Below are positions 42,926 to 63,862 of a stretch of 64,000 nucleotides of DNA, piece by piece (positions within the stretch are counted from its first letter, which is position 1; each line of letters opens with the position of its first letter). The translations under genes were made by a program, and so were the position numbers. The stretch comes from a virus, in the IMG/VR virus record IMGVR_UViG_3300021356_000010, positions 17,721 through 81,720 of that record; one strand, written 5' to 3'. The notes below the pieces were generated by a model. That model was not told the DNA's origin, did not search any database, and saw only the letters and a list, made by a program, of their open reading frames with translations.

Positions 42926-43546
42926 TCAAGCCCATCTAGGACCAACGACCCATCCAACCAGTGACCTTCTACATCCAGACTTGACTTTTCTCACTCTGTG
43001 CATTGTTCTAGCATCAAAGACAATCATTCTACCTCTTGCCTTTGGAGCAGTCATTAATTTACCAGCATCCAAAAACTGTAACTCGCCACCATCATAATCA
43101 TTAGGACCAGACAGTTGCAATGAGAATGCTAACTTTCTCACATACTCATGCTCTACAAACGATTCATTAGATGATTGGTTGTACTTAGAACTAGGAACAA
43201 AGTTTGGAGTAAATTCTGTATAGAGGTGCTGATCTGGATGCCAGTGATAGAACTGACCCTTATTGTACTCAGTATATTGAATCATCTCAGTATCAAAAGA
43301 CGTTATGTTGAATCTAAAGTTACGTCTATTTGCTGCTTGAATCCAATACCAGATCATTGGTCCAACCCAAACATCAGTTGGAATATAAGAAACCAATGAA
43401 TCTCTTTGAGTATTAAGATGCCCTACCTCTCCATCTGGTTTGAATACAGTGCCGTCTTTGACAGGATAATCATGTGCTAATTTTATAATCTCACTAACTA
43501 CCACATCAGGTAGTTTTGTATCAAATTCAACTGCAAAGTCTGCCAT
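42926..43546 (-). CDS. 2OG-Fe(II) oxygenase (206 aa)
   Basis: The core GQFYHWHPDQHL gives the HxD iron motif (His103, Asp105); KLAFSLQLSGPNDYDGGELQ is the typical GGEL strand pair, and IVFDARTMHRVRKVKSGCRR has the distal His183 and the Arg (193/194) that binds 2-oxoglutarate. The fold matches prolyl-hydroxylase-like and PiuC-like enzymes of about 200 residues. Substrate unknown: proteins or small molecules are possible. It is coupled to the unknown 266-residue gene by one base (TAATG), and is the last member of the cluster. Confidence 0.85.
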   Translation of the reverse strand: MADFAVEFDTKLPDVVVSEIIKLAHDYPVKDGTVFKPDGEVGHLNTQRDSLVSYIPTDVWVGPMIWYWIQAANRRNFRFNITSFDTEMIQYTEYNKGQFYHWHPDQHLYTEFTPNFVPSSKYNQSSNESFVEHEYVRKLAFSLQLSGPNDYDGGELQFLDAGKLMTAPKARGRMIVFDARTMHRVRKVKSGCRRSLVGWVVGPRWA

Positions 43547-44348: not shown

Positions 44349-44867
44349 TTATACTAGCTCCAGTTTCCAGGCTACAGTCTTACGCAATCCGCCAAATGTT
44401 CTTGTAGGTTCTTCAGCAAAGTGTTTGATTTGACCAGGGAAATATACTGCTTTATTTATTTCTGGGGTGACCCAAACTGGTCCATTGTCAAACAAGAAGC
44501 ATGTCTTACCATTCCATCGAACATCCCATGCACCATTAGCATACCACAATAGAGTTCTTGCTTTTTCATCAAATCCATCTACATGTGGTTGCCCACCTAA
44601 TCCATATGTCTGACCATTAGCATAAACTGATATCACTTTAAAGTCATCACCAGTTGCTTTACGTATTGGTTCAAGTAAAGTCTCTGTAAAGAGTTTATCT
44701 CTTCCAAGTTGCATTATCCAAAATGGTGGAGCATTTATATTACCTGATCCAGAGACATGTCCATATCTCCACTGTGGTCTTTCCAAGAAAACTTTAATAG
44801 ATTCGCAATGCTCTTCAGAAAACATATTTCTAAAGATACGAATATCATCTGGACTAAAATTGTGCAT
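44349..44867 (-). CDS. 2OG-Fe(II) oxygenase-like protein (172 aa)
   Basis: The segment GQPHVDGFDEKARTLLWYAN holds HxD (His95, Asp97), followed by WNGKTCFLFDNG, then EINKAVYFPGQIKHFAEEPT with distal His149 and GGLRKTVAWKLEL with Arg162. All four standard active-site residues are therefore present in the right order in a compact 172-residue protein. Enzymes with this layout (JBP/P4H-like) hydroxylate protein or nucleic acid targets; the target here is unknown. It overlaps the next upstream oxygenase gene by 14 bases. Confidence 0.82.
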   Translation of the reverse strand: MHNFSPDDIRIFRNMFSEEHCESIKVFLERPQWRYGHVSGSGNINAPPFWIMQLGRDKLFTETLLEPIRKATGDDFKVISVYANGQTYGLGGQPHVDGFDEKARTLLWYANGAWDVRWNGKTCFLFDNGPVWVTPEINKAVYFPGQIKHFAEEPTRTFGGLRKTVAWKLELV

Positions 44868-45507
44868 ATTCTCGTATCAATTGATATCTTGTCCTTTCAA
44901 GATCAGCAACAAGCTCCACGTCTCTAAGTTTATCATAGTTTTTGATAATTGTCATTGAATAGTCATTGACAATCTCTCTAATTCTACTATCAGAAATCAC
45001 TGACTCCATCCACAATACCATGACCCTTCTCTCACCAGAAGTAACTTCATTGACTTTGTGATAGACACCAGTTGGATATGCTACACAAGATCCTGCAGGT
45101 AGTTTGTATTCAATTTCTTTGCCACCAACATTCAATACCAACTCTCCTCCCTCATATTCATCTGGATCATTGAGAAAGAGCGACAGACTATAATCTGTTC
45201 TCACTTCATTCATGCAATAAAAATCATTATGATATTTGTAATGCATACCCTCTGTATATCTGAGAAACATAGGGATAGTAGTAGCTCTAGGAACTAGAAC
45301 GTAATTCAATTGTTCAGACTTTTTTATCTGACTATCAGCATACTCACACAACCTAGGACCATGAACAGAATCTTGTATCTGTTCATTCCATTTTATAGAC
45401 TTGTCATCAGAACCAGTGACAGACCCATCCACAAAGTCACAGATTTTGTAGTATTCATTTATGGTATCAAGTTGGGTTTCGCTTAAAACTTTAATAGTAT
45501 AGATCAT
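44854..45507 (-). CDS. PKHD/PiuC-type 2OG-Fe(II) hydroxylase (217 aa)
   Basis: The pattern GMHYKYHNDFYCMNEVRTDY, then SLSLFLNDPDEYEGGELVL and YKLPAGSCVAYPTGVYHKVN and SGERRVMVLWMES matches PKHD-type Fe-dependent hydroxylases (PiuC family). Iron ligands: His93, Asp95, His150; 2-oxoglutarate Arg160/161. The length of about 217 residues is close to the usual 225. The true role of PiuC proteins is uncertain (linked to iron uptake in bacteria). It overlaps the 172-residue oxygenase gene by 14 bases and follows the tail-chaperone-like gene by a 16-base gap. Confidence 0.87.
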   Translation of the reverse strand: MIYTIKVLSETQLDTINEYYKICDFVDGSVTGSDDKSIKWNEQIQDSVHGPRLCEYADSQIKKSEQLNYVLVPRATTIPMFLRYTEGMHYKYHNDFYCMNEVRTDYSLSLFLNDPDEYEGGELVLNVGGKEIEYKLPAGSCVAYPTGVYHKVNEVTSGERRVMVLWMESVISDSRIREIVNDYSMTIIKNYDKLRDVELVADLERTRYQLIREYAQF

Positions 45508-45523
45508 TATAATGTCAATAAGT

Positions 45524-46420
45524 TTAATCTTCTACGTGCAACAACTCCATTCTTAAATCTGGGAAGAAGTCCCAAGCGTTGAGAGTTTCCATTAGTTCAT
45601 AATATTTACGTGTAATCTTCGCAGTATCATCATGTCCTTTATTTACATATTCCAGGACATTCATAATGTTGTTGGTAACAAAATCAGTAGATGCTTTGAA
45701 GTCTAGTTTAGTGAATTGATCTTCTGTACCCATATATTCTACTGGGTTGCCATCTGCATCCTGACCATTTGGATACAGTTTAAAATAATTATTTGGATCA
45801 ACAGCAAACTTAACTGTTGTTGCAAACTTAAATGCTTCGTATCTATTTTCAAACGTTTCAATATTTGGCAGGAGATCTCTCAAATGCTGTCTCCACTTCT
45901 TCCACATTTCTAATTCACCATCAAATTCTTCTTGATAGTCTGGAAGCATTCTCCAATCAGAGAAGAGGAGCATAGAACGTACTTCAATAGTTCTCTTTAC
46001 ATACTTTGCCTCATAGTAATACTGATAATCAATCAGTTTCTTACTTTCTTCGATAAATTGAGACGTTTTCTCATGCTTTTGTACTTCAGCTAGAGAATCA
46101 AAGAGTTCATATATTCTATTTGCATCATCAGTCGATGCTTCTGGATAGTTGTAACTTCTCCAGTATTGATTTCCCTCTGAATCCGTGACAATCTTTTTCT
46201 TTTGACAGAGATACTCCCCACCCCAGTAGAAAATGAGATACTCGATCTCATCCTTATCTGGAAGATGCCACTCAGATCCTAGATTTGGAACAAGAAGATT
46301 ATCCCAAACATCTTCTTTCATGAAGACTGCTCTATGTGGAGGTCTAACGACTACCTTATCCTTGAAATTTACTTCAAGTTTAACTTCCTTTGAAGTTACT
46401 TTCTCGTTTTTGTTAGTCAT
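45524..46420 (-). CDS. Probable tail-fibre assembly chaperone-like protein (298 aa)
   Basis: The region around residues 145-185, VRSMLLFSDWRMLPDYQEEF then WKKWRQHLRDLLPNIETFEN, fits the phage tail assembly chaperone pattern (RxxLLxxxDWxxLPD...W..YRQxLRDLP, PF16778-like). An extended helix (AEVQKHEKTSQFIEESKKLI) precedes it, and the N-terminal third is mixed. Proteins with this motif normally sit next to the fibre gene they help fold, as is true here, with the 1229-residue adhesin-like gene one gene away. It is flanked by oxygenase genes on both sides. Confidence 0.7.
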   Translation of the reverse strand: MTNKNEKVTSKEVKLEVNFKDKVVVRPPHRAVFMKEDVWDNLLVPNLGSEWHLPDKDEIEYLIFYWGGEYLCQKKKIVTDSEGNQYWRSYNYPEASTDDANRIYELFDSLAEVQKHEKTSQFIEESKKLIDYQYYYEAKYVKRTIEVRSMLLFSDWRMLPDYQEEFDGELEMWKKWRQHLRDLLPNIETFENRYEAFKFATTVKFAVDPNNYFKLYPNGQDADGNPVEYMGTEDQFTKLDFKASTDFVTNNIMNVLEYVNKGHDDTAKITRKYYELMETLNAWDFFPDLRMELLHVED

Positions 46421-47047
46421 TTAAGGAATCTGCAAATACCATCCAGTCAATATGTATTTATCTTGGGTAAAGACTGTGTTACCCTTATGGACGTGTGTCA
46501 TTCCAGCAGGCCAGATAATTACTGTTCCTTGAGTTGGTCTAATACGTCTTCTTTGATGTAAAAACTCAGTCTCTCCTTCTCCCTCAGGAACGTCATTCAA
46601 ATAAATTGCCCAAACTAGTTCTCTATTGCAATGATGATAGTTTTGACTCTCATAATGCCAGACATGATATCCACCCTCAGGTTCTGTCTTCTGCATTTTA
46701 ATGTCACTTGAGAATAGTTTCAGTGACTTGAGTTGAGAATACTTATCAATATAATGTAATGAACATGCCTGCAAGTATTGATTAATAGCAGTGGCAATTT
46801 CAACACTACAAGAATTCAATAGAAGAGATTTATCATCTCTTCCTAGTTTCTTTTGTGAGAATTGTTGCTGACCATCCATCATGACAATTGATGATGTGTT
46901 GGACAGTTCCTCAAATTGATTAATGATTTTCTCGCACAGATATCTTGGTACGAAATTTTCCCAAACGCCAATAAAATCGTCGAACTCAAACTTTGTGAGT
47001 TCTTCATTTTTCATCAATTCAAGAGGTTTAATCGGTTGTAATGCCAT
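46421..47047 (-). CDS. 2OG-Fe(II) oxygenase (208 aa)
   Basis: PEGGYHVWHYESQNYHHCNR gives HxE (His131, Glu133) as the first iron motif, followed by ELVWAIYLNDVPEGEGETEF, then GTVIIWPAGMTHVHKGNTVF with distal His185 (or His187) and DKYILTGW with Lys197 where other members have Arg. The overall shape matches P4H-like oxygenases of cyanophages. Glu for Asp and Lys for Arg are variants known in the superfamily but could change activity. A CTAAATA late-promoter-like motif lies 22 bases before its ATG, so this gene probably starts the cluster transcript. Confidence 0.82.
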   Translation of the reverse strand: MALQPIKPLELMKNEELTKFEFDDFIGVWENFVPRYLCEKIINQFEELSNTSSIVMMDGQQQFSQKKLGRDDKSLLLNSCSVEIATAINQYLQACSLHYIDKYSQLKSLKLFSSDIKMQKTEPEGGYHVWHYESQNYHHCNRELVWAIYLNDVPEGEGETEFLHQRRRIRPTQGTVIIWPAGMTHVHKGNTVFTQDKYILTGWYLQIP

Positions 47048-47068: not shown

Positions 47069-47075
47069 TATTTAG
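47069..47075 (-). promoter_or_regulatory. Late-promoter-like motif CTAAATA before the oxygenase cluster
   Basis: The minus strand reads CATACTAAATATTTTATATTGG, starting in the stop codon of the 1229-residue gene and lying 22-28 bases before ATG 47047. A late promoter here would express the oxygenase cluster with the structural genes. Motif match only. Confidence 0.5.
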
Positions 47076-50000
47076 TATGCCTTAATTACGAACTTCGCTG
47101 CAAAGAATGGTTGGATTAGAGGAATAGTTCTGTTTGGTTTTAGTTTAACAGTTGGAATTAATGCCTTCGATGAATCTAGTTGGAAATTTCCAATATTAAT
47201 TCTACTACCCATTTCAGTATGATTGAATAATACTTCAGTGGTATTACCTCCACCCATGCCTGTAGTCTTTGTTCCAGCACCATTTGTGTTACCCCATCCA
47301 TACACTGTTGTTGGATCACCAAATGCAGTGTTAGAAATATAATGTGAGTGAGTCAAAGTTCCACCTTCTGGTGAATACAAAGCAACGTTTGCAGTAGATT
47401 CTAGAGTATCTAATGCTCCAAGCCATCTGTTGTCACTACCACCACTATTATCTAACTGCAAACTACTATCTGTTGGTGACGCCCACCAGTTTGTATATGA
47501 AATACTAAAGTTCCAGTCAGAGAAGTTGGATGATGGTGCATCAGGAACACCAGGCCAATCACTCAAGTTATTGTTATTAACTGTCTGGTTGTCACCATAT
47601 ACAGCTTGAGCATTCCAGAACAAGAGTCCAGTATTTACATCCAAACTAGTAGCACTGAGCATATCATGAGTATGAGCAGGAATATCAGTTAGAGTATCAA
47701 CTAGTGGTCCAACAAAAGTAGAGACATTTCCTTGGACATTAAAGTTAATACTACCAGATATACCATCATATCCAGTTGTTGTGACGTTACCGATGCTAAA
47801 GAATGCACCTGCAGTGCCTTGATCATCAGCATCACCATCATCTTCTACTTGTTCTAGTGGTAGTGGTCCGCCTGCATCCACAGTATCAATATACCAATCA
47901 CCACCAACAGAACCAACTGTTTCTCCAGAACCAGTTCCAGGTAATCCAGGAGGAGCAAATCGTGTAGGTGCAATAGGAGAAGCAGCAGAGTTTCCATCTA
48001 CATTGCCACTTCCAAACATTCTTCTATTTCTTGTGTCAGGAAGATTGAAGTTTCCAAAGTAAGTAACAGTTTGACCTGAGACAAACTTTGATCCATCACC
48101 ACCATATCTGTTTCCAATGACTTCCCATAGATCTGGATAATCAAGAACAGATAATTGCTGTCCTGCACATTCAATAAATCCAGGATATCTGGAATCTAAC
48201 TCACCATCTAACTGTCCCCAGTTACCTTGAGAATCTCTGAAAACACTAATAATAGTTCCAATTGCTAATCCATCCATTTTTGTTCTTGGAGTAGCATTAT
48301 ACCACGTTGATTTATCATTTCCTTCTGGAGATGATGCTAACGTTTCTACAGTCCATTCATCCGAAACTCCGCCAATATTAACTGTTATAGATGTTAATGG
48401 ACTTCCAAAAGCTCCTGTTTGTAGTCTTAAACTAATAGGATCTCCTGGTGTATATGAACCAGTATATGGAGCAGCTGTCCATGTAGTTCCATTATCAAAA
48501 CTTACCGCATGGAAGTTAGCTTGTTGTACATTAGTAGTAATAATTATTGAAGCAGATGCTGTGATACCAGCAGGCACAATAGTATTACTATAGATCATAG
48601 TATTTGCGAACTGATTGGTTCTATCATTAAATGTAAATTGATCAGGTACAGTATCTCCAGCAGTTCCTGTAATGACTCTCCATTCATCTGTGAAAGAACT
48701 ACCAGCTTGTCCAACTGTAACAAATGCAAGTTTGTTCTCATTTGGTTGAGAAGGAGAAGTTGTCCTAATTTGTAAATCTTGTGTATTTGCAACTTTAGTA
48801 GTAGCATCTGGTGTTACCCAAGCACCATCACCAATTTTAATTTCATAACTTGATGCGTCACCACCTTGCTCAGAAATACTAACCAAAGCAGGAGTGTTTA
48901 TACCAGTAATAGTTTGTACATTACTCTCAATTAATGTATTAACAGCAACATCTTCTGCATTGATAAAGTTGAAAGGATCTGGGTTATCATCGATAATCAA
49001 AATTGTCGTTACATCCCAATCTACAATAGATCCAGATCCAACAGTTACAAACGCTGAGCTAACAGTATTAACTGTAGATCCAGAAGACATTCTTATTTGT
49101 AATTCTTGACCATTTGATATAATGGCACTGCTTGCATTCTGATCAACTCCATCGAGAATGATTGATGCAAATTGGTTTGCCAATCCATTAATTGTTGCTG
49201 TTACACTGACCAAAGCATCTTCTGTAAGACCAGTGATTACAGCAACGTCACTAATAATATCTGTATCTAATGGTTGCTCATCAACATCAGTAAAATCAAA
49301 TGGGTTAGGAATTAACAGTGGAGGATCTTTAGTTATAATACTCCATTGTGCATCAACTGTTTCTCCTACATCACCCCAAGCTAGAGTTGCAGTTTTTACT
49401 GTTGTATATACATCAGGAGACTCCATAGTAAGTTCTAATATATCTCCATTAACAACAGTTGTTGAAGATCCTACATTAGTACCATTTTTTATGATCTCAG
49501 CACCATTGTTAGCAGTACATGGAACCTCAATATTAATTCCACTAACTGTAACAGAATCAAGTGTTGTATATTGTGTAAGAATATTGGCACCACTAATAGT
49601 TTCAAAATTTACTACTGGATTTGGATTACCATCTTCACTATCATATGTGATTGTTATGGATCCACTTTCACCTGCAGCAGATTGACCTCCACCAGTACCA
49701 ATACTAGAAGTAGCAATATTTGGCACAAGTAATCCTACAATAGGATCAGTGTGATATGAAGCGTTATAGTAACTTCCTCCACCACTACCACCACCAGCAT
49801 TCTGGTCATTAGATGGCGTAGCTCCAGCACCACCACCAGGGGTGCCACCGCCACCGCCACCGCCCGCAGGACCATCTAGAATTGCAGTTCTTGTGATGTC
49901 GAAACTATTACAGTGGTCTCCATTAGGAGCAGTACATACTCCACAAGTATCGTTACTACACCAACCATAAGGACTTCCACCTCTTTTCTGTCCAGGAGTC

Positions 50001-50761
50001 CATTTATATCCGTCTTTAATGATTTGATTAGCAGATTCATTGGAAGGAGTGTCGTAATAAATTGTTGTTCCATTCCACAAGATAACCAATTTTCTAATAG
50101 CAGTAGTTGGATCAGTTTGAGGAGCACCAGATCTTGTATGCCAACCATTATTAACATTTAAACAAAGAGGATTCTGATTCAACCCACCAGTAGCTGTTCT
50201 GGTTTGACTACCACCAGTACCACCAGCAAAGTTTGATGCGTTACTGCCATTTTGTAAATTCGCAGTACCAGAAAATGTCTGAGAAGCATCACCTCCATTT
50301 TTATTATACTGCACAGCACCCTGAGTACCAGCACCACCAGCACCGCCGCCACCACCAGCAACTACAATGTATTGAGCAGCAGTAGCATCATAAACATAGG
50401 AAGCAGCGCCGCCGCCGCCTCCACCACCAGAAGCAGCAGAGTCTCCAGCATCACCACCGTTTCCACCTTTACCAGCGGTACTTCCGTTAGTTCCTCCGTT
50501 GCCGCCATCAGCACCAACTAAGTTACTGACACCACCGCCTCCTCCACCACCAACATAAATGGTGAGAACATTACCAGCAGTCACATACATTGATCCATTG
50601 ATTCTGGCACCATCACCACCAGTTCCACCTGCAGATCCAACATCACTGCCCGATCCACCGCCACCAGCTCCGTGAATCTCGTAATCGAGATATTGAACTG
50701 TAGCAGGAACTGTAAAACTATAAGAACCTGGGGTATTAAATGTCTCTGTAATCGCTGCCAT
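47072..50761 (-). CDS. Glycine-rich, Ig-repeat tail-fibre adhesin-like protein with collar domain (1229 aa)
   Basis: Residues 1-145 begin MAAITETFNTPGSYSFTVPA and hold long glycine runs alternating with short strands (VLTIYVGGGGGGGVS; YIVVAGGGGGAGG), a glycine-rich domain known from phage fibres. A further Gly run and a cluster of four Cys (WCSNDTCGVCTAPNGDHC) lie near residues 265-345. Four tandem Ig-like units of about 100 residues follow, encoded roughly at 48340-49630. The C-terminal part has a tail-collar domain (YPGFIECAGQQLSVLDYPDL; GNFNLPDTRNRRMFGSGN). It is likely the distal receptor-binding fibre protein; host receptor unknown. The oxygenase cluster follows directly. Confidence 0.8.
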   Translation of the reverse strand: MAAITETFNTPGSYSFTVPATVQYLDYEIHGAGGGGSGSDVGSAGGTGGDGARINGSMYVTAGNVLTIYVGGGGGGGVSNLVGADGGNGGTNGSTAGKGGNGGDAGDSAASGGGGGGGAASYVYDATAAQYIVVAGGGGGAGGAGTQGAVQYNKNGGDASQTFSGTANLQNGSNASNFAGGTGGSQTRTATGGLNQNPLCLNVNNGWHTRSGAPQTDPTTAIRKLVILWNGTTIYYDTPSNESANQIIKDGYKWTPGQKRGGSPYGWCSNDTCGVCTAPNGDHCNSFDITRTAILDGPAGGGGGGGTPGGGAGATPSNDQNAGGGSGGGSYYNASYHTDPIVGLLVPNIATSSIGTGGGQSAAGESGSITITYDSEDGNPNPVVNFETISGANILTQYTTLDSVTVSGINIEVPCTANNGAEIIKNGTNVGSSTTVVNGDILELTMESPDVYTTVKTATLAWGDVGETVDAQWSIITKDPPLLIPNPFDFTDVDEQPLDTDIISDVAVITGLTEDALVSVTATINGLANQFASIILDGVDQNASSAIISNGQELQIRMSSGSTVNTVSSAFVTVGSGSIVDWDVTTILIIDDNPDPFNFINAEDVAVNTLIESNVQTITGINTPALVSISEQGGDASSYEIKIGDGAWVTPDATTKVANTQDLQIRTTSPSQPNENKLAFVTVGQAGSSFTDEWRVITGTAGDTVPDQFTFNDRTNQFANTMIYSNTIVPAGITASASIIITTNVQQANFHAVSFDNGTTWTAAPYTGSYTPGDPISLRLQTGAFGSPLTSITVNIGGVSDEWTVETLASSPEGNDKSTWYNATPRTKMDGLAIGTIISVFRDSQGNWGQLDGELDSRYPGFIECAGQQLSVLDYPDLWEVIGNRYGGDGSKFVSGQTVTYFGNFNLPDTRNRRMFGSGNVDGNSAASPIAPTRFAPPGLPGTGSGETVGSVGGDWYIDTVDAGGPLPLEQVEDDGDADDQGTAGAFFSIGNVTTTGYDGISGSINFNVQGNVSTFVGPLVDTLTDIPAHTHDMLSATSLDVNTGLLFWNAQAVYGDNQTVNNNNLSDWPGVPDAPSSNFSDWNFSISYTNWWASPTDSSLQLDNSGGSDNRWLGALDTLESTANVALYSPEGGTLTHSHYISNTAFGDPTTVYGWGNTNGAGTKTTGMGGGNTTEVLFNHTEMGSRINIGNFQLDSSKALIPTVKLKPNRTIPLIQPFFAAKFVIKAY

Positions 50762-52933: not shown

Positions 52934-55900
52934 TTAGATTTCCATCAACCACCAACCAACAGCGGTGCTTGGTACGTTACTAGCACCACCATCATTATTT
53001 ATTGGTCCCGCATAAACTAGACCGAACGCGGCATTTGGAGTTGTGACAACCAATTCACCACCATTATGCTGTGATAGATCAACACCAGTTACATCAGCAG
53101 CGATGTTAGTAGCATCACCCTGAATTGGTGTGCCAGTGCTAGCACGAATGATCAACTTAAGATCATACTTGAGGTTACCACCAAGGTCAATAATTCTAAC
53201 CATATCACCATTTGATGGATTAGCGGGTAACTTAACATATAGATCTCCAGTTGCATTGGTGAAGTAGTTAATGTTAGGAGTAATTACTCCAGCATCACCA
53301 CCAGCAATTGTAATATAATCCCATCTTCTTGCTCCAGTTGGACCATAGAAGTATTCGATACCACCAAGATCAACAGTTCCGTTATCTTGAACCTTAAAGA
53401 TCTTAGTACCATTACTATTGACGGTTAGATTTCCACCGTTAAGAACTAGATCACCAGCAAATGTATTTTCTCCTAAACCATTTGAGAAGTATTCACCAGC
53501 AATTTCAAGTTTTCCTAGGTTGTTAGAGAAGTGGAGTCTGTTATTGGTATCAGCAGCATCTCTGATTATAAAGTTTCCACCCTTGATAGTGGTGTTTCCA
53601 GTATCATCTTCAACCAAGAACTTATCAAATCCAGCACCAACACTAAGGTCACCAAGGATTCTAGTATTGCCTTGGGCACTATCTACATCAAATACAACCG
53701 TAGGAACAGTATCGCCGTCCGTGATGATTAGTTTTTGATCACCAGGAGCAGTAGATCCATGAATAGTTGTAGTATCGAAGATGTCACAGGTTCCTCTGAT
53801 AAATGTATTACCAGTTGTCGATTCAACTTGGAATGTTACAACTGCTGGATCGCCACCATCATTAATGGTGAATTTCTGAGTAGATGTTAGAGAAGTGATT
53901 AGAGATTCAATCTTCAAGAATTCATTATCATTGATTCTGATATAATCACCTGTTCTCAGAGATCCACCAAATTCCGCAGTTTCTAGTTGAGTATCAACGT
54001 TAGTAAGTTCTTCTTTAGAGTAACTTACATTTTCACTCTTCTCAATTCTAAAGATTGGTGTATTATCAGCATGAACTCCTGCTGTGGTGCCATCAACACC
54101 TCTTTCAACCTTAACACGAATACCTTCAGGATCGGTTACATCACTCAAGTTAGTAAGTTCAATGACTCTAACCAATTCAGATGCTGTTTCTTGTGCATCT
54201 GTTCCGCTAGCAATTAGCAGGTAATCACCTAGAAGAATTTGTCCAACTGAATTAGAACTCAATCTAACAAATTCTTCAGATGCTGGCATGTTAGCAACAC
54301 CTTGAGTATCAAGAGTCTTTCCACCAATATCAATCTTCTTATAAAGATCTAGGTTGAAATTATCTGGTAATCCACCTGCAGGTTGTCCTGCAACAGGAGT
54401 TCCAAAGACACCCCTAACAATATTGACGCCACCAGCATTCAATCCACCGTTCTGTTGGATATCTCCATCAAAGTCTGCTCTTGCTTTTACATACAACGCA
54501 TTATTAATTGTGGTTGTTCCACCAACACCACCAATGTCGAGAGTAGAAGCAGTTGTAGCAAGTCTGACAGTAGAAGGTCCTCCACTAGCGGTTAAGAATT
54601 CAAATCTAGAATTCAAGGAGAACAATCTTCCAGTTCCAGAACCAGCAGTATATCCAGAACCAACCTCAACATCACCATCTAGTGAGATGTTCTTGTTCTG
54701 AATGGTGAGTTGAGAACTAGAACTTGAGAATGCTCCACCAATAGTAATAGTAGAACTATAACTATCATCTAGATTGGAGACTGTTCCGATATCAATCGTA
54801 GAATCTTGTGAGTTTCTATGAATGTTCAGAGTTGTAACTTCAGATTGATCACCAAATGTTAGAGTTTGAGTTTGTGCATAGTTGCCAAAATCGAAACTCA
54901 TTGTCTCGGTATTGGTCGATTCATTAGCAAACTGGATGTTGCTTGCATTCATGATGAACCTGACTGTCTCAGGTGTTTCCATCATGTCAAGTGTTCCGCT
55001 GGTGGTATCAAAATCACCAACGAAGATTTCTAATCCACCGTTAATCTGAAGATTACCAGTGATGTTAGTAGATCCAATAATAACATGATCTGTTCCGATT
55101 GAATTTAACTGACCAAGAGTAGCATTAACACTCATTCTACCCTGACCAATTGGTCCAGGAGTTGTAGAAATACGGAATGCTGCGATATCCTCTGGACTTT
55201 CGCTATCTCCACCAACCAACAATGCATGGTCTTGATTGGTAAGAGTTCTAAACTGTAGTCCTTCTTTTAAGAAGTTGAGAACCTTCTTACCACTGATGAA
55301 TGTGTTACCAACAACATCGAAGTTTGCACGAGGTTCAGTGAATAGAGGATCAGTCCAAGCAGTCTTAGCAGACTCCCATGGAGTTCTTGCGATGGTATTA
55401 ACACCAACCTTAAAGTCTCCCCAATATTCAGTCTCAGTTCTGATTGCTTCTGCACCAATAACTCCAAGTTCCTTCCAATTAGAATTAGAGAATTCAACTG
55501 TTGGAGCATCACCAGTTGCATTAGAAACTACGGTATCCCAAACTAGAGTTTGAGCACCAACAGCATCAATTGCTTGGAAATGTAGATAGTTATTATTTCC
55601 ACTGAACGCATCTCCAGGAGGAGAATAAATCGTCCAGGTTAGGTTGATTGATGGTTCTGGATAGAAGTTCTTAAATCTGATTTGAGAAGCAGAAGTAATT
55701 CCTAGTTCAGAACATGTAATATCTAATCCACTAGTAAAATCAACAAATGTAATCTTGACGACATTTGTGTCATCAAAGATGATGTTACCAATGCTAGTAT
55801 TTGCAATGTTGGTGAAGTAGTTAGATAGAATCCATCCCATGGATCCTGTGCTTCCAACCTCAGAACCCTTGAACAGAACATCTCCAGATCTTGGAATAAC

Positions 55901-58900
55901 GCCATTGTAATTAACGAGCTGTTCAGGGAAGACTCTAGATCCTTCAATAGGAGCATTAGGATCTGCAGGAACCTCTGGAGATTGGTTTGGTGATAGGTTT
56001 GATGGAACACCTCCAATAGTATGAGTCAAGAACTTATATTCTTGTCCCTGTCCTCTAGAGTTGAATCCGAAGATCGCAGATTGAATTCTGTTCTTACCAA
56101 TTCTGATATCACCTCTGCTAGGATCAGGCAACCATCCAGTTCTATCAAGACTCTCATCTTGCTGCTCGAAGGTTACAGGATCAATAGAAGAAACATAAGA
56201 ACGAATGATTAAGGAATGACGTTCCTGAGACAGATCTTCGTCCTGTACAGCAATAAGAATAGGAGACTCAAATGTATTGACAAGTTGTCCATCACCACCA
56301 ACAACCGTAATGTTCTGGTTGAACGTTACAGGTGTATCGAAGGTGGTAACGAGACCGCCTACTACATCCTCATCATCGCCATCATCTTCTAGGATTGCAG
56401 CATCGATGAATGTCTCTTCACCAGTGATAGCATTGATTCTTCTGTTACCAATATACAGGTCACCCTGAGAGTTGATACCAGTGTAGAAGACGATACCAGC
56501 GTCTTGTTTCTTACTTTGTGCGTAGAAGTCCTCTTCGGGTGTTAGGACGATCTCCTGACGTGCTGGGAGACCTGTGGAGTAGTTACCAGGACCGAAACCA
56601 AGATATTCAAACGTATGGTTACCAGCACGAGCGATAGATGGTCTTCTAAGTTCAACGTAGTAACGCTGATCTGACATGACCGTGCTATCACCAGAAATAG
56701 GAATACGACGGTCTTCTGAACCAGAAGTTGCGTTGCCCTCTTGTGCTCTGACTCTGTTATCAATTACATTTCCATTACCATCAGAGGTTGTATTGGTGTA
56801 TTCATTATTAATAAACGCTGGTTGATCAAATAGATCCTCAACCAATTCCTTGGTTACAGAGTTCTTGTAGTCATTAGTTGTAACTAAACCATGAATGTAG
56901 TTATCAGCAGCAGAGAATGTTGATGGTGGGTCAATTAGCAACTCATAGTATGCTTTTTCCTTGTTAGAAGTACCATTCTTCTTAAACCAAAGAGGATCGT
57001 TCTTGTAGTTTAGTGGATACAGTCTGCTAACTGGTTGTGAGAACTTAAACTTCTTAAAGTTCTCAGCAACACCAGCACCTGTTGGGAATGGTGAAACATT
57101 GCCACGGAGTGCAGTTAGATAGTAGATACCATCTTGCTGACCAGCAATTCTGCGCTGTAGTGTCTCATAACCAAAGATGTAGAAGGTATCTTCAATAACA
57201 CCTGCATCTTCGACACTATCAACGTAGTATTCAACACCTGCGCTATCTTGAATACGATCACCAGGAGTGATGGTATAAACGTTAGCGCCGTTTTGCTTGT
57301 AATAATACTCAGGATAATTTTTTCTGATTAGTGTTTTCAGAGGTAGCGATTTGCCCATATCCTGGTCTTCCAGCATATCAGCAAAGACAGCACCCTGAGT
57401 AAATCTAGTATCATAATACTCACTATACTCAAGTTTGCCACCACGGATGTTCTTGATGATTAGATAGTGATCACCACCAACACTGTAGTATGCATGAATA
57501 TTAGCGAGACCAGAAGAATTACCAGTGAAAGCAACTTCGTTCGCAGGAACACTTTGTGTCTTACTTACAGTGAAATCTCCGCCCTGAGGTGCAGTAATCT
57601 TAACTGTAGTAAATACTTCGTTTCTTAGACCAGGGAAGTTGATCGCATCAACAGCATGGTCGAAGACTGTCAGTTCTAGATACTTGATTGTAGGATCAAG
57701 AGTATCCTCAACATATCTACCACTTTGGATAGAAGCTTGAATACCAGAAGCAAACTTAGCATACTGGATGTAGTTGATACCAGATCCAGTTAAATCCTTC
57801 TTATAAGGATCATATGCAGCATCTAGGTTTAGATTGTTATCAGCAAAGTCCTGTCTGGTATAACCAATGTATTCATCTGCCTGAACTGGGTTGCTAAAGC
57901 GAGCACCATAGACAGATCCAGTTACAGGTTTGAGTAGGAGTTTTTGAGGAACAAGTTTTCTGGTGTCGTCAGTTCTTGTCTTAAGAACGAAACCATTGAT
58001 AGGATCTCTAGCATTCTCAAGATACTTAGGAATGACATATCTGATCTTGTAGGTTCTCTCATCCTTGTCACGGTCATCCTTAACACGCTCGAACCACATG
58101 TCTGTGGTCTTAGGTCTATCAGCATAATCACTCTGATGAATTCTCCAGAAGATATTTGATTGCTTGACAGAATCTGGTTGAGAGGAAACTTCATCCTTAC
58201 ACTGGATGAACCACTTACCAGAATCAGTTGCAGTATCAGTAAAACCAGGATCAAATCTTACAGGACTTCTTCTCTTGTTAGCATATACTTCAAACTCAAT
58301 AGAAGTCTGACCAGATCCAAACTGAATTGGATTTACATTATTGATAGCATCCGCATGTGTTTTGTGTATGGTGAATACTTTGTTGTTTTGATAACGAGCA
58401 AAGAACTCTTTGACTGGATTAATTTTTCCTAGATTTGCATCATTTGGATCAGTTACAGCAACGTCAGAATCATTCTCGAACGTTGTAGAAACTGCTGGTA
58501 GAGTGCCACCAGTAACAGCTCTGAAGAATACCTTTTGAGGAGTTACAGAAGCAAATGGTACATCGAAGATGTTAGAGACATCAGTCTCAATACCAGCATT
58601 TACAGTATTGGTTAGGTTACAACCATACTTGTGTAGATCATAAGAATCATCAGTTAGGAACTGATAGATATCAATTTCAACGTTTGGATCAATACCTTCG
58701 GTCTCAGAAGCATAGATGTAGATACCTGCTGCAGCATTCTCTTTAGAAGTTGCAAGCATCAACTTAGTTTGATCACTACCATTGAAGAATGTAGTGTTGC
58801 TATAATCTTCTGGTTGTGTTCTTCTGCCAGGAGCAATTACATAGTATGTTCTATTGGTCTCGAAACCATTTGGTAGTCTGATGAGACGCTTATCAACATC

Positions 58901-61900
58901 AACATACTTACCAGTAACCTCATCGAAACGAGGACGTGGAACGAGTCTGACTGCAGTTCCAGTCTCAAAGTCATGGGGGTTAGATGTACCAATGCCGCTA
59001 GTATCGATTGTGAATACAGTTGCTCTAGCAGCAAGGGTAACACTATTAACAGTTGGTTCTTGTCTTGTTACACTACCAACACCAGTGTTGATAATGGTTG
59101 TGATCGCATCAGTTAGAGTTTCGATAGCGTTAGTAACACCAGCACACTCAACACTACCAGGAGCAGTGGTTGTATCTTGAATTACATCTGGATTGCTGGA
59201 AGCAGGTCCAACTACTACAGTCTTAGGTAGAGTATCTGCCCAAGTTCCTTGCTCGAAGGTGAAGTAGAGGTCAGTAGTTGTGCTATTTTGTAGTGCGTTT
59301 TGAGTATCACCAGTGTCTAGTCTAGATCCTACAACACCCAACTCAATCTGAGTATTGCTTACAATCTTCTTAACGTAAGTTCCTTCTGGAATGTTGGAAT
59401 AAACAGCGGTTGCTCCTGGTTGTAGCAGACCATCAACATAATCTGTGCTGAGATATTCAACAACACTCATACCGATTAGAATACCACGAGTGTCTCCAAC
59501 ATCAACGATAGCAGAACCAATTGTTGTGGAACAGTTGAATGCAAGGAAGTCGAAGTTTCTCATGGCAGCAGTTGCCATCTGTCCGACATAATCCCATGCA
59601 TCTAGAGTCTCTGTCTTCTCACCATCGATATAATCGAGTTGGTTACCAACAAAGTATGCCTCTGCTGCCTGAACACAAGCGATGTTTCCACCCAATCTCA
59701 AGTCATTGACAATACCATCAACGATGTATGTTACATCACGGAAGCACTTAGATGCCTCATTGTTGAGGGTAAAGTCTCCTTGGTTGAGAACAGGTAGTTC
59801 GCCAAGAGTATTGCCGATGATTGCATCACTAGCAATATCGTAGAGAGATTCGATTGTAGAACGTACATTAGCACAATCCCACTCACCACTATCAATAATT
59901 GGCAGAGCATCTAGGTCTCCAGCATAGAGAGTATCAACAACAATACTTACAAGAGTATCGATAGTTGCCAATACATCAGAGCAATTGCCTATAGTATATG
60001 CGGTTGGTTGTGGTGTAGCAGTTCTAGTGATTCCATTGAGGTTACCAACACCAGCATCAGTACCGATTGCCTGAATGATAATACCGAAGAGAGTATCAGT
60101 AGCAGCAACTGCAGAACCACACTGTGGTAGTGGAGCATCGTCATCATCCCAGTCATCAGTTTGAGTAAAGTCAAAGACCTGAGTCTCTGTGTGACCAGCA
60201 GAAACAGATACAGTTTCGTTATTGATAACTTGGATAGCAATGTTCTTTGCTTCGAGGAATACCTTAGCAGCTTCATCACGCTCAGCATCGATGAATGTCT
60301 CTACTACTTGACCTTCGAAGATGTTAGTTACATATACTTCAGCAGCATCGTAAGTCTTATCATTGCCACCAAACTTGACGTTATAAGCAATCTGATCTAG
60401 TACATCATAAACATCATCTAGGCAGTCTTGCTTAGTGTTACCAGTCTGAGGAGTGTATGATGGATAAGCAGCAAGCATACGCTCATATGCTTCAGCAGCA
60501 ATAAACTTCTTGTTATCAAGAATAGAGATAGAAGCGTTAGAGTGAATGTCAGCGAATACTGGAGGATCGCCAGTCTGATCTAGTGTGATGGTTAGATCGC
60601 GATCATAGTATTGGTTATTGACAGCACGGTTCATTAGATCCTGTGCTCTTCTAAATGCTGTGATCGAAGGAGCAACTTCGTTATCAACACCGTTGGAGAT
60701 TAGGACAGTGCCATCATTTGCATCGAAGTATTCTTTCGTTGCTGCAATAGTAAATTCGTTACCACCAAACCAGAGGTCTTGTGCAACTGCATCAACAATG
60801 TGACCGATATCTCTACGACACTTAGTCTCGCCTGCGAGGAGAGTTCCTGCGTTCTCTGCTGGCAGACTGTCTAGAGATGGTGTTGGTTGTCCTTGGAATA
60901 CATCAGTTACGATAGATACCAAGTTAGAGATTGCTGATTGTACATCAGAACAAGCAGTAGAATCAGTGTTACCAACGACTCCATTGCCATCTCCATACTC
61001 AGATTCACCTGGGGTGACAGTAAGATCCTTGTAGTATAGACCATTAGTAACTGCCTTCTGCATCTCAATAGAAGCAGCGTCAAAAGCGGTTACACTTTCT
61101 GCCTCTTCACCAAGCAATCCATTAGGAAGCTGTGTGCTAGAGTCAGAGAAATACTGCTGTACATATGTTCTCGTGTGCTTGTTTCCACCAACAAACATAT
61201 CAACAGAGATAGCATCAATGAAATAGTTGATATCTCTGTAGCACTTTAACTCACCATTTACAAGTGTTCCTTTGTTGAGTTCAATAGGAACACTGCTTAG
61301 GTTGCCATCGATAATAATAGTATTAACGATAGTGGTTAGAGTATCAATAGCAGACTGAACATTAGCACAGGAAGCAGGATCTGTATTAGAACCAGTTAGA
61401 GGATCTGCTGTAATGGTTAGGTCTGTTACTGTGAGTTGGTTTGCAACTGCCAACTTCATCTGTGCTGCTGCTTGGGTGAAAGCAACAGAAGATGAACTTT
61501 CTTCATCAACCAATCCGTTACTGATTGGATCGCCATTTACATCAAAATACTCAGCAGCAAATCTATATGCATACTCATTGCTACCTAGGAAGACATCGAG
61601 TGAGATAGCATCAATGAAATATCCAATGTCTCTCTTACACTTGGTCTCATAATTTGCTGGTAGAGGAGATGGTGGATTGTTTGCATTCATGTAATTGAAT
61701 GCACTTAGTATAATCTCATCCTTGTTTAGTTGAATCAAACGATAAGCATCAGCAAATCTTGATCCAGTATCTGTCTGCTGATCACCAGGGAAGTAGAAGT
61801 CAGGATGGTTTAGTGCAATAGCAGCAAGAGCTTTATCAGCAATTTCTTTGCTGTTGCGACGAATTAGTCTAAATCCATCAGCATAACGTGACTGTTCATT

Positions 61901-63862
61901 GCTCTGTGTATCACCAGGGATGTAGAAGTCTGGATGATATACAGCGATCTCTGCTAATGCTCCGTCAAGGATAAAGTCGCGGTTAGCAACAATACGGTTG
62001 CGACCATCCTTGTTACGACCTGCAGGATCCTGTGTGTTGGCAGCATCAACAGTTACACCATTATCTGTTAGTCCTGCCTCTTCAGCTTCGGAACCAGTGT
62101 AACCAACACCTACACCGTAACCAGCAAGATCGCTGTTAGGATTAGGATCATAGATATCTGCTTTGACTTGTAATAGGTTAGCAATTGCTTTCTTACAGAG
62201 ATCTCTTGATCTATTGAATGCCCAGAGGATTTCGTCTTCTTGTCCAACAAAAGAAGCAAGAGTTCCAGCACCATTAAAGTATTCTTTTACCTTACCAATG
62301 GTGTTAGCATTACCACCATCTCTCAAGTCTTCTGCAACAGCATCAACAATCTCACCAATATCAACCTTATTGATAGTTGTAGCTGGATATGTTACTACAG
62401 TTGATGCATATGCAGTGTCAATGATCTCTTGACGGTTAGCAATGATTAGATCGCGACCATCGAAGTAGCGGTTTGCATTTGGATTTAGACCAGGATTGAC
62501 ATAAGAAATGTTTCTAAGTCTTGGATACTTCTCAATGATATAACCGAAGACTTCCTCCTGAATCATGCGACGGTTGCTTTCAATTAAGTTAGCAGCGTCT
62601 GCACTTACGTTATCAATTGCTAAACCAGATGGATTTAGAATAGAACCCTTTGCAATATACTTGACATAACCCGTTGGGTTAAGTGTTACATTGAACAACT
62701 GAGATCCACCTGATTGAATAGGATCTAGTTTTACATAGAGTTTGTCATCTGTCTTAGCACCAAGTCTGTAACCACTGATAGCAACAGCAGGACGATCTGC
62801 TGGGGTGATGATATCATCACTACCCAAGAACAACTTGGTGTAGTTTGCTGCATTCTGTGTGGTTCCAGTAATATCTACTGTATAGTAGTTGATTTTCTCA
62901 ATAGTATCAGTATTCTCTTCTACCTGTTGAGGTGGAATGATGTCAGTAATATAACCTGCCTTATCTTGGTTAAAGGAGAATCCTTTGAAACCAATAGCGT
63001 GAAGTGATGTATTACCGAAGTTAGAGTTCGAGTTGGTGATAGACATGTCACCACCTGACTCCATCAGGAAGTGATCAGCGAAACCAACAGCGAAGATAGA
63101 AACGTTTTGGATGAATGCATCTTCTGATGCACGGACGTGGAAGTTTCTCCAGTCATCCTTCCAGTAAGAATCACCCTTAGCGTGGTAAGGAACCGTTGCA
63201 AATGCATCTACTAGTGATGCTTGGTTCCAAGTGTTGGAATACTCGTCATAACGGATGAATGCTCTATCGTCCTTCTGCAACGAAACACCCGTGTATTGAG
63301 CGATAACCATCGACTTAAAGCCTGTTGCCTTAAGACCGTTCGCCCAGATACCACAAATACCCCACGTAGAACGAATAGAGCAGTTAAAGACATATGGTGA
63401 TGCAGACTCAACAGAATCAACCTCAGCAAGAGTCTGTGCATTCTGTCCTAGTGCAGGTGTAGTTAATTGACTAATTAACTGACCAGACACCAAGTTTTGT
63501 CCAATTGCACTTACAACAATTGGTACTTCATATGTAAATTTACGAGGATCGTTAGGATCGATCTCCTTAATTGGGAAGAATCCTTCCAGTACGTCATCAA
63601 TCTCTGTGTTAGAGATAGAAACAAACTGACCTGCAAAGTATCCATGATCAACCTTAGTCGTTACTTCAACTTCTGCTGTAGAAGCAGGGATGGTTGGATC
63701 AGTTGTTGCATCAGTAAGTTTGAGACTTTCAATAACTCTAGAGTCAGAAAGAGGACCAACAATTCTGTTCTCTTGGATGTTGAAATCGAACTCACCTGGG
63801 TCATCAATCGTTGGTTGATAACCAGCGAATGCCTTTGCAATCTTTCTGTAGAATAGAGACAA
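52934..63862 (-). CDS. Giant tail-fibre/baseplate structural protein (3642 aa from TTG)
   Basis: The longest frame starts at a TTG (63862), giving MSLFYRKIAKAFAGYQPTID, but coding-like sequence continues 43 codons upstream, so the true start is unresolved. Residues about 150-310 form a beta-helix-like region (STWGICGIWANGLKATGFKS; VIAQYTGVSLQKDD) known from cyanophage fibres. Residues about 425-1445 contain five or more copies of a helical module with SNRRMIQEEV-type, YFIDAISLDVF-GGN-type and CANVQSAIDTL-type parts. The C-terminal third (after about residue 2550) has repetitive beta units (FLVEDDTGNTTIKGGNFIIR) and ends PSTAVGWWLMEI. Likely a long fibre or baseplate-fibre component. Confidence 0.78.
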   Translation of the reverse strand: MSLFYRKIAKAFAGYQPTIDDPGEFDFNIQENRIVGPLSDSRVIESLKLTDATTDPTIPASTAEVEVTTKVDHGYFAGQFVSISNTEIDDVLEGFFPIKEIDPNDPRKFTYEVPIVVSAIGQNLVSGQLISQLTTPALGQNAQTLAEVDSVESASPYVFNCSIRSTWGICGIWANGLKATGFKSMVIAQYTGVSLQKDDRAFIRYDEYSNTWNQASLVDAFATVPYHAKGDSYWKDDWRNFHVRASEDAFIQNVSIFAVGFADHFLMESGGDMSITNSNSNFGNTSLHAIGFKGFSFNQDKAGYITDIIPPQQVEENTDTIEKINYYTVDITGTTQNAANYTKLFLGSDDIITPADRPAVAISGYRLGAKTDDKLYVKLDPIQSGGSQLFNVTLNPTGYVKYIAKGSILNPSGLAIDNVSADAANLIESNRRMIQEEVFGYIIEKYPRLRNISYVNPGLNPNANRYFDGRDLIIANRQEIIDTAYASTVVTYPATTINKVDIGEIVDAVAEDLRDGGNANTIGKVKEYFNGAGTLASFVGQEDEILWAFNRSRDLCKKAIANLLQVKADIYDPNPNSDLAGYGVGVGYTGSEAEEAGLTDNGVTVDAANTQDPAGRNKDGRNRIVANRDFILDGALAEIAVYHPDFYIPGDTQSNEQSRYADGFRLIRRNSKEIADKALAAIALNHPDFYFPGDQQTDTGSRFADAYRLIQLNKDEIILSAFNYMNANNPPSPLPANYETKCKRDIGYFIDAISLDVFLGSNEYAYRFAAEYFDVNGDPISNGLVDEESSSSVAFTQAAAQMKLAVANQLTVTDLTITADPLTGSNTDPASCANVQSAIDTLTTIVNTIIIDGNLSSVPIELNKGTLVNGELKCYRDINYFIDAISVDMFVGGNKHTRTYVQQYFSDSSTQLPNGLLGEEAESVTAFDAASIEMQKAVTNGLYYKDLTVTPGESEYGDGNGVVGNTDSTACSDVQSAISNLVSIVTDVFQGQPTPSLDSLPAENAGTLLAGETKCRRDIGHIVDAVAQDLWFGGNEFTIAATKEYFDANDGTVLISNGVDNEVAPSITAFRRAQDLMNRAVNNQYYDRDLTITLDQTGDPPVFADIHSNASISILDNKKFIAAEAYERMLAAYPSYTPQTGNTKQDCLDDVYDVLDQIAYNVKFGGNDKTYDAAEVYVTNIFEGQVVETFIDAERDEAAKVFLEAKNIAIQVINNETVSVSAGHTETQVFDFTQTDDWDDDDAPLPQCGSAVAATDTLFGIIIQAIGTDAGVGNLNGITRTATPQPTAYTIGNCSDVLATIDTLVSIVVDTLYAGDLDALPIIDSGEWDCANVRSTIESLYDIASDAIIGNTLGELPVLNQGDFTLNNEASKCFRDVTYIVDGIVNDLRLGGNIACVQAAEAYFVGNQLDYIDGEKTETLDAWDYVGQMATAAMRNFDFLAFNCSTTIGSAIVDVGDTRGILIGMSVVEYLSTDYVDGLLQPGATAVYSNIPEGTYVKKIVSNTQIELGVVGSRLDTGDTQNALQNSTTTDLYFTFEQGTWADTLPKTVVVGPASSNPDVIQDTTTAPGSVECAGVTNAIETLTDAITTIINTGVGSVTRQEPTVNSVTLAARATVFTIDTSGIGTSNPHDFETGTAVRLVPRPRFDEVTGKYVDVDKRLIRLPNGFETNRTYYVIAPGRRTQPEDYSNTTFFNGSDQTKLMLATSKENAAAGIYIYASETEGIDPNVEIDIYQFLTDDSYDLHKYGCNLTNTVNAGIETDVSNIFDVPFASVTPQKVFFRAVTGGTLPAVSTTFENDSDVAVTDPNDANLGKINPVKEFFARYQNNKVFTIHKTHADAINNVNPIQFGSGQTSIEFEVYANKRRSPVRFDPGFTDTATDSGKWFIQCKDEVSSQPDSVKQSNIFWRIHQSDYADRPKTTDMWFERVKDDRDKDERTYKIRYVIPKYLENARDPINGFVLKTRTDDTRKLVPQKLLLKPVTGSVYGARFSNPVQADEYIGYTRQDFADNNLNLDAAYDPYKKDLTGSGINYIQYAKFASGIQASIQSGRYVEDTLDPTIKYLELTVFDHAVDAINFPGLRNEVFTTVKITAPQGGDFTVSKTQSVPANEVAFTGNSSGLANIHAYYSVGGDHYLIIKNIRGGKLEYSEYYDTRFTQGAVFADMLEDQDMGKSLPLKTLIRKNYPEYYYKQNGANVYTITPGDRIQDSAGVEYYVDSVEDAGVIEDTFYIFGYETLQRRIAGQQDGIYYLTALRGNVSPFPTGAGVAENFKKFKFSQPVSRLYPLNYKNDPLWFKKNGTSNKEKAYYELLIDPPSTFSAADNYIHGLVTTNDYKNSVTKELVEDLFDQPAFINNEYTNTTSDGNGNVIDNRVRAQEGNATSGSEDRRIPISGDSTVMSDQRYYVELRRPSIARAGNHTFEYLGFGPGNYSTGLPARQEIVLTPEEDFYAQSKKQDAGIVFYTGINSQGDLYIGNRRINAITGEETFIDAAILEDDGDDEDVVGGLVTTFDTPVTFNQNITVVGGDGQLVNTFESPILIAVQDEDLSQERHSLIIRSYVSSIDPVTFEQQDESLDRTGWLPDPSRGDIRIGKNRIQSAIFGFNSRGQGQEYKFLTHTIGGVPSNLSPNQSPEVPADPNAPIEGSRVFPEQLVNYNGVIPRSGDVLFKGSEVGSTGSMGWILSNYFTNIANTSIGNIIFDDTNVVKITFVDFTSGLDITCSELGITSASQIRFKNFYPEPSINLTWTIYSPPGDAFSGNNNYLHFQAIDAVGAQTLVWDTVVSNATGDAPTVEFSNSNWKELGVIGAEAIRTETEYWGDFKVGVNTIARTPWESAKTAWTDPLFTEPRANFDVVGNTFISGKKVLNFLKEGLQFRTLTNQDHALLVGGDSESPEDIAAFRISTTPGPIGQGRMSVNATLGQLNSIGTDHVIIGSTNITGNLQINGGLEIFVGDFDTTSGTLDMMETPETVRFIMNASNIQFANESTNTETMSFDFGNYAQTQTLTFGDQSEVTTLNIHRNSQDSTIDIGTVSNLDDSYSSTITIGGAFSSSSSQLTIQNKNISLDGDVEVGSGYTAGSGTGRLFSLNSRFEFLTASGGPSTVRLATTASTLDIGGVGGTTTINNALYVKARADFDGDIQQNGGLNAGGVNIVRGVFGTPVAGQPAGGLPDNFNLDLYKKIDIGGKTLDTQGVANMPASEEFVRLSSNSVGQILLGDYLLIASGTDAQETASELVRVIELTNLSDVTDPEGIRVKVERGVDGTTAGVHADNTPIFRIEKSENVSYSKEELTNVDTQLETAEFGGSLRTGDYIRINDNEFLKIESLITSLTSTQKFTINDGGDPAVVTFQVESTTGNTFIRGTCDIFDTTTIHGSTAPGDQKLIITDGDTVPTVVFDVDSAQGNTRILGDLSVGAGFDKFLVEDDTGNTTIKGGNFIIRDAADTNNRLHFSNNLGKLEIAGEYFSNGLGENTFAGDLVLNGGNLTVNSNGTKIFKVQDNGTVDLGGIEYFYGPTGARRWDYITIAGGDAGVITPNINYFTNATGDLYVKLPANPSNGDMVRIIDLGGNLKYDLKLIIRASTGTPIQGDATNIAADVTGVDLSQHNGGELVVTTPNAAFGLVYAGPINNDGGASNVPSTAVGWWLMEI

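Follow-up and report, generated by a model that had tools for sequence, protein, structure and literature searches.

A stretch of 64,000 nucleotides of viral DNA (the window; positions 17,721 to 81,720 of the 81,720-base virus record IMGVR_UViG_3300021356_000010) contains an open reading frame (ORF), P0001, whose 1229-residue product is probably a gp12-type fibre bearing a TNF-like/glycine-rich domain, which in turn carries a mobile, exchangeable surface module for probable host contact. This module is predicted to be a separately folding domain of ~113 residues that is inserted between glycine runs and is not a linker. The first-pass annotation of P0001 had described glycine-run domains, four tandem Ig-like (immunoglobulin-like) repeats and a collar domain, together with a cluster of four cysteines proposed to lock an otherwise flexible tip. 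Its coordinates (47072-50761) and residue count were correct. The plus-strand reading from 47072 contains many stops; the ORF, which has no ambiguous bases, lies on the minus strand.

The Inserted Module and Its Distribution

Residues 184-297, modelled alone with 21 relatives in AlphaFold 2 (AF2), gave a predicted local distance difference test score (pLDDT) of 94.2 and a predicted template modelling score (pTM) of 0.88. The model is all-beta except for a three-residue helical turn, with a first strand at its residues 2-5 and a long last strand at 98-110. These two strands would likely pair, an arrangement that may allow the module to be dropped into loops without upsetting the domain that receives it.

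Comparison with related proteins delimits the insertion and shows that its site varies. The homologous domain of L010, one of the P0001 relatives L006-L010 (contig ends truncate L006, L008 and L009), has no module: in the alignment NGSNASNNSG leads directly into the following glycine run. The homologous glycine-rich domains of L018 and L043 are likewise free of it. In other related domains the module occupies a strand hairpin (L017 and L019) or a different glycine loop (L053), and elsewhere it stands at the N-terminus (L014), at the C-terminus (L026, L030, L036 and L038) or internally (L018 and L043). In the neighbourhoods examined, module-bearing proteins are encoded in or beside gp12 (the window, L014 and S-CAM3) or near baseplate wedge genes (S-BM3, with annotated gp25 and gp6, and L018, L038 and L043, with phrog_219). 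The module would thus be put to use by phages in structural proteins rich in glycine or in Ig domains, at positions that vary, and the genes for these proteins lie near those of the baseplate.

Pattern-based scans of IMG/VR for the module levelled off at 36, 45 and 46 loci, one of them S-CAM3 itself, and five of 50,697 phage records contained it (four of S-CAM3 and one of S-BM3). The S-CAM3 virion structural protein and the S-BM3 ORF carry the module at 39-48% identity; unlike the window protein they are separate from gp12, and they have three and one of its five cysteines, respectively. In S-CAM3 isolate 0910TB04 the module gene (L005:2362-3270) ends within the module, and other S-CAM3 isolates read on; isolates with intact and truncated genes form a natural pair for comparing adsorption. 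The module frame of S-BM3 (L001:1-531) reaches the end of a linear record, so the start annotated for it is probably wrong; the relative L026 has an open frame of 814 residues. Predicted viral structures similar to the module model include D6PIG6 (E 2.8e-5) and S-CAM3 (E 2e-3). Two of the most distant copies, L046 and L069, share their proteins with Laminin_G_3 lectin-like domains, and the L046 protein also matches ALK_LTK_GRD (PF12810) just below cut-off.

Searches against known families returned nothing that identifies the module. Pfam gave no match at E <= 10 (five sequences), the best PHROGs match had E 0.011 (22 sequences), and the distant L069 copy found none among the phage records. Matches judged to be due to chance were three oxidoreductases in a PDB sequence search (E 0.88-0.89), Arthrobacter phage Molivia (twice) and a Vibrio phage among the phage records (E 0.9-6), and a Butyrivibrio contig (L048; 30 residues, E 4e-5 among candidates, no module motifs). 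The last was the only match in a scan of cellular-genome contigs, in which absence is weak evidence, as the scan rests on two peptide patterns. A literature search on cyanophage glycine-rich fibres found no published description of the module, a statement that extends to that search alone.

The Glycine-Rich Domain

The domain that receives the module is rich in glycine as described (glycine fraction 0.45 over residues 61-120) and matches PF21722 above cut-off at residues 10-194 (28.8 bits, cut-off 24.3). The AF2 model of residues 1-386 is weak (best pLDDT 59.8, pTM 0.41; five models averaging 59.8 to 47.3), and within that weak model residues 4-8, 12-17 and 24-30 form strands and no helix reaches four residues. 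The alignment used for folding (A7) had shortened rows for L010, L018 and L043 and omitted the second half of L010; even so, L018 and L043 ran over into module columns at their row ends.

Structure comparison in VIA placed the model closest to the Pam3 fibre (Z 12.9 over 154 residues, 27% identity), the Bxb1 tail tip (Z 11.4), LTK (10.7 and 10.0) and ALK (9.6-10.4), and the first 19 Foldseek matches were ALK or LTK (best ALK E 2.7e-4), with Pam3 at E 0.025. Because the next VIA entry scored 4.1, these comparisons of a predicted model support assignment of the N-terminal domain to the TNF-like/glycine-rich adhesin fold, in the class of Pam3 gp24 and ALK/LTK, and so link the fibre to a solved fold class. 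In the Pam3 fibre, strands of a TNF-like domain run into stacked glycine-rich motifs whose variable distal loops are proposed to bind the receptor (PMC9608196).

The likenesses differ in extent. Pam3 gp24 (PDB 7ypx, 7yfw) shares the TNF-like beta-sandwich leading into glycine-rich motifs; its N-terminus, however, forms a helical docking part, and no inserted module is mentioned in the available portion of its description (PMC9608196). P0001 opens directly with the TNF-like strand, and its repeats and gp12 part follow. The TG/GRD domain of ALK/LTK matches in fold and, weakly, in sequence profile (E 0.0096-0.033 for seven ALK chains), but these are animal receptor kinases and their family PF12810 is unmatched by P0001 at E <= 0.1. 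The Bxb1 match (PDB 9d93) extends across 151 residues of a protein from another phage type with another host. A scan with the glycine-rich alignment, in which glycine patterns were uninformative, returned at least one locus, already known.

The proposed likeness to polyglycine adhesins of T-even phages held for the class of glycine-rich adhesins to which Pam3, Bxb1 and ALK/LTK point, and failed for the S16 gp38 family. S16 gp38 is itself a phage adhesin with glycine-rich motifs, described as a polyglycine sandwich with variable loops (PMC6851490), and the Pam3 account compares the Pam3 fibre with it (PMC9608196); polyglycine "brush" domains of mycobacteriophages also appear in another report (PMC13243795). 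Membership of P0001 in the gp38 family was rejected: PF05268 is unmatched at E <= 0.1, the model opens with a beta-strand, and the helical N-terminal attachment domain with which gp38 caps gp37 is absent from that (weak) model. The polyglycine idea is supported in kind, by kinship and not by the 1-386 model itself, in which the glycine loops have pLDDT < 50.

The gp12 Region, the Fusion and the Repeats

P0001 can be identified from sequence as a gp12-type short tail fibre of a marine T4-like cyanophage, because it matches the short tail fibres of phrog_4924 (E 1.4e-126), contains the Collar domain PF07484 (36.7 bits, cut-off 24), in keeping with the collar first annotated, and lies in the gp12 gene order. 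The succession of gp12, 2-oxoglutarate (2OG) oxygenase, chaperone and second 2OG oxygenase is the same in S-PM2, Syn1, S-CAM1, S-CAM4 and ACG-2014i. Cyanomyovirus gp12 (S-PM2 p226, Syn1_038) matches the C-terminal two thirds of the window protein, including Collar, and is likewise followed by the 2OG oxygenase and chaperone; it has no N-terminal glycine-rich domain, and the glycine-rich protein is encoded just upstream.

This gene arrangement leads P0001 to be read as a fusion of the upstream glycine-rich protein with gp12, since isolates encode the glycine-rich domain in a separate gene upstream of gp12. The gp12 N-terminus is another, glycine-poor sequence in six isolates (S-PM2, Syn1, S-CAM1, S-CAM4, ACG-2014i and S-CAM3), and the gene just upstream starts with a glycine-rich domain in four (S-PM2, Syn1, S-CAM4 and S-CAM3), the Syn1 protein being judged solely from its glycine content and first residues; that of S-CAM1 is much less glycine-rich. 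In profile comparison by hhalign, the window domain matched S-PM2p225 at E 7e-16 and the S-CAM4 protein at E 4e-17, scores that glycine runs inflate, and it is 42% identical to the upstream S-CAM3 protein. L010 is also fused, without the module.

Two further phages show other arrangements. Sf-FR1 encodes a single protein of 1853 residues with a weak PF21722 match (below cut-off) mid-protein and Collar further on. In Synechococcus phage Sf-CH1b the glycine-rich/repeat and collar proteins are separate ORFs (L002:1431-5831 and 5831-7498) that overlap at a stop/start TAATG, and the cut falls within what appears to be a single repeat of the window's fused protein.

Between the two parts of the fusion lie four repeats, R1 to R4, which are 21-39% identical in pairs and align 5.6-12.5 standard deviations above shuffled sequences in five of six pairs; the pair R1-R4 is only 1.8 above. 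The repeats as such are real, with one weak pair, while the label "Ig-like" stays an inference: Pfam Ig models gave no match to P0001 at E <= 0.1.

Change Between Near Relatives

The module changes faster than the rest of the protein. It differs at 16 of 112 residues from L008, against 25 of 938 elsewhere (Fisher p 1e-6; L008 is 96% identical in its best segment and cut at residue 1051), and at 16 of 112 from L006, against 34 of 1060 (p 5e-6); L006 and L008 have identical module sequences and are not independent. From L007 it differs at 28 of 112 residues, against 163 of 1116 elsewhere (p 0.006). Most of the differences from L008 lie at residues 216-221 and 239-251, both of them loops when read against the AF2 strands. 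The ratio of nonsynonymous to synonymous substitution rates (dN/dS) in the module is 0.61 (L006, L008) and 0.37 (L007), with other segments ranging from 0.17 to 0.49; the module is thus under constraint and is simply the part fastest in residue change.

These features bear on the strongest of the alternatives, that the module serves structure or assembly, for instance as a trimer spacer or a chaperone landing site, and not receptor binding, and that its fast change reflects relaxed constraint. Such a role would suit a module that occurs terminally as well as internally in proteins, that enters strand hairpins among other sites, and whose dN/dS is below 1; weighing most in its favour, the insertion in the window protein may be closer to the base than to the tip. 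The Pam3 report also places chaperone binding near the junction of the TNF-like and glycine-rich parts (PMC9608196). Assembly, on the other hand, needs no module in general, because L010 lacks it and none was detected in S-PM2, Syn1 or S-CAM4, the three isolates keeping the gp12 neighbours; the concentration of L008 differences in two loops also counts against such a role. A structural role is a real but rather unlikely alternative to the exchangeable surface module.

Cysteine Pairs

C268, C273, C276 and C284 lie within 17 residues, and a fifth module cysteine is C200. The cluster is beyond chance: with seven cysteines randomly placed in 1229 residues, four fell equally close in 61 of 200,000 trials. 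The first-pass annotation placed these cysteines between glycine runs and suggested that, through disulfides or zinc, they could hold a flexible glycine-rich tip rigid, with S16-type gp38 as the model. The cluster is real; its setting was misjudged, since it is part of a folded module.

Conservation was followed in a table of 47 rows (the window, S-BM3 and 45 IMG/VR contigs, among which close copies are frequent; the later-found L080 is not included). C200 and C273 are both cysteine in 30 rows and both absent in 17, and C268 and C276 are both cysteine in 10 and both absent in 37, with no discordant row for either pair. C284 is cysteine in 37 rows, some of which have no other of the five, and five rows have none. 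In L046, L047, L067, L068 and L069 the loop is partly or fully gapped, so that cysteine absence there means loop loss. When the 32 distinct rows were placed on a tree with the five cysteine columns masked, the pairs changed three and four times, always jointly. Since the cysteines come and go pairwise and the full cluster is rare, C200-C273 and C268-C276 are most likely optional disulfides that staple loops, with C284 unpaired, and not a Cys4 metal site; a zinc site was rejected on the same count, the four cysteines being jointly kept in 7 of the 47 rows.

The proposed lock gains from the clustering itself and from the retention of all four cysteines in the near relatives L006, L013 and L015 and also in L018, L053 and L054. 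It is nonetheless very improbable and was abandoned: the cluster sits in a module that is confidently predicted by itself (pLDDT 94), C268 and C276 are jointly missing from most rows, L043-L045 lose C284 yet keep the other three, and PF05268 is unmatched. Relatives without the cluster, which the annotation had named as telling against a lock, were found, and they carry the module all the same.

Probable Role of the Module

The likeliest job of the exchangeable module would be contact with the cyanobacterial surface during adsorption, by a fibre that is presumably trimeric. A small enzyme, for example one acting on surface polysaccharide, is a still more improbable assignment than the lock: polar and aromatic residues (R, D, N, W, Y) that do not vary across two alignments, one of 22 and one of 20 sequences, would fit it, but no enzyme fold or family was matched, ~113 residues is small, and two-cysteine staples with variable loops look binder-like. 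That the long ORF is a misassembly chimera from a metagenomic virus record is extremely unlikely, since its arrangement recurs in L006, L007 and L008 at 84-96% identity, in L007 at full length (L006 and L008 may represent a single virus), and L010 is fused in the same way, though it lacks the module.

Several observations weigh against host contact by an exchangeable module. Host contact is a putative function, and one that is unreadable from structure, there being no PDB match: the best Foldseek match to the module had E 1.3 and VIA gave none with Z >= 2 among 636 chains, a result that leaves a new fold unproven. As read from sequence, the L017 insertion seems to interrupt a strand hairpin and that of the window may be at the base, so that a distal position is uncertain. 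The 1-386 model is itself weak, above all in its glycine loops. The module dN/dS is no proof of positive selection; against L007 that of the repeats is higher (0.43), and against L006 that of the C-terminal part is 0.49. Independent cysteine changes are too few for a significant sign test. Lastly, not all module-bearing proteins need be tail adhesins, because five of eight scanned proteins (L018, L026, L036, L038 and L043) have, in sequence beyond the module, matches to head protein or Hoc-like families.

A broader proposal is offered more tentatively. The module may be a new virus-borne binding domain, of a fold not seen in the PDB, that serves as an exchangeable host-recognition cassette; cyanophages would insert it in various loops of polyglycine adhesins and tune it by optional disulfides and variable loops, and distant relatives would act likewise in gp38-type adhesins of soil phages. 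The lead for the last point is a Foldseek match (probability 0.99, E 0.019) to A0A6B9J3D3 of Rhizobium phage RL2RES, named a Gp38-domain receptor-recognising protein and taken from its 381 residues to be RL2RES_230 (L072:23363-24508, minus strand). This protein has ~95 residues free of glycine runs between two glycine-rich stretches and matches PF05268 below cut-off; the fold match also counts in favour of host contact by the module. The likeness is a lead and not proof, and its low identity (12%), query TM-score (TMq 0.48) and profile match (hhalign E 0.016 at probability 2.8) count among the points against. A 2010 review of cyanomyoviruses suggested that structural proteins of unknown function may supply some of the "missing" tail fibre proteins (PMC2984593); the module, predicted to fold alone, is a concrete candidate for host contact.

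Features of the Locus

Table 1. Features of P0001 and neighbouring genes in the window.
Feature	Positions	Strand	Basis
ORF P0001, 1229 residues: TNF-like/glycine-rich domain, inserted module, four repeats, gp12-type collar/C-terminus	47072..50761	minus	Pfam, PHROGs, relatives L006-L010
TNF-like/glycine-rich domain, first part, residues 1-183	50213..50761	minus	PF21722; Foldseek/VIA matches ALK, LTK, Pam3, Bxb1
Inserted beta-module (predicted), residues 184-296, with C200, C268, C273, C276, C284	49874..50212	minus	AF2 model; missing in L010; relatives
C200, co-varying with C273	50162..50164	minus	Cysteine table
Cysteine cluster, residues 268-284	49910..49960	minus	Sequence, cysteine table
TNF-like/glycine-rich domain, second part, residues 297-378, closing strand 368-373	49628..49873	minus	Alignment, AF2 model
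Repeat 1 (R1), residues 381-485	49307..49621	minus	Repeat alignment
Repeat 2 (R2), residues 486-594	48980..49306	minus	Repeat alignment
Repeat 3 (R3), residues 595-706	48644..48979	minus	Repeat alignment
Repeat 4 (R4), residues 707-812	48326..48643	minus	Repeat alignment
gp12-type short tail fibre region, residues 826-1062 (Collar 860-913)	47576..48286	minus	phrog_4924 E 1.4e-126; PF07484 E 4.2e-9
Tail collar protein, upstream neighbour, 292 residues	50766..51644	minus	phrog_4714 E 3.1e-67
Short tail fibre/collar protein, upstream neighbour, 429 residues	51644..52933	minus	phrog_4591 E 5.1e-86
2OG-Fe(II) oxygenase, downstream neighbour	46421..47047	minus	PF13640, phrog_61
Tail assembly chaperone	45524..46420	minus	phrog_4697 E 2.1e-57

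Further oxygenases lie downstream of P0001, beyond the 2OG-Fe(II) oxygenase and chaperone, so that three 2OG-Fe(II) oxygenases (PF13640) surround the fibre and chaperone genes (window positions 42926-43546, 44854-45507 and 46421-47047), a layout similar to that of isolated cyanophages. Just upstream of the collar genes, an ORF of 3642 residues with a TTG start (window positions 52934-63862) ends near the end of the virus record.

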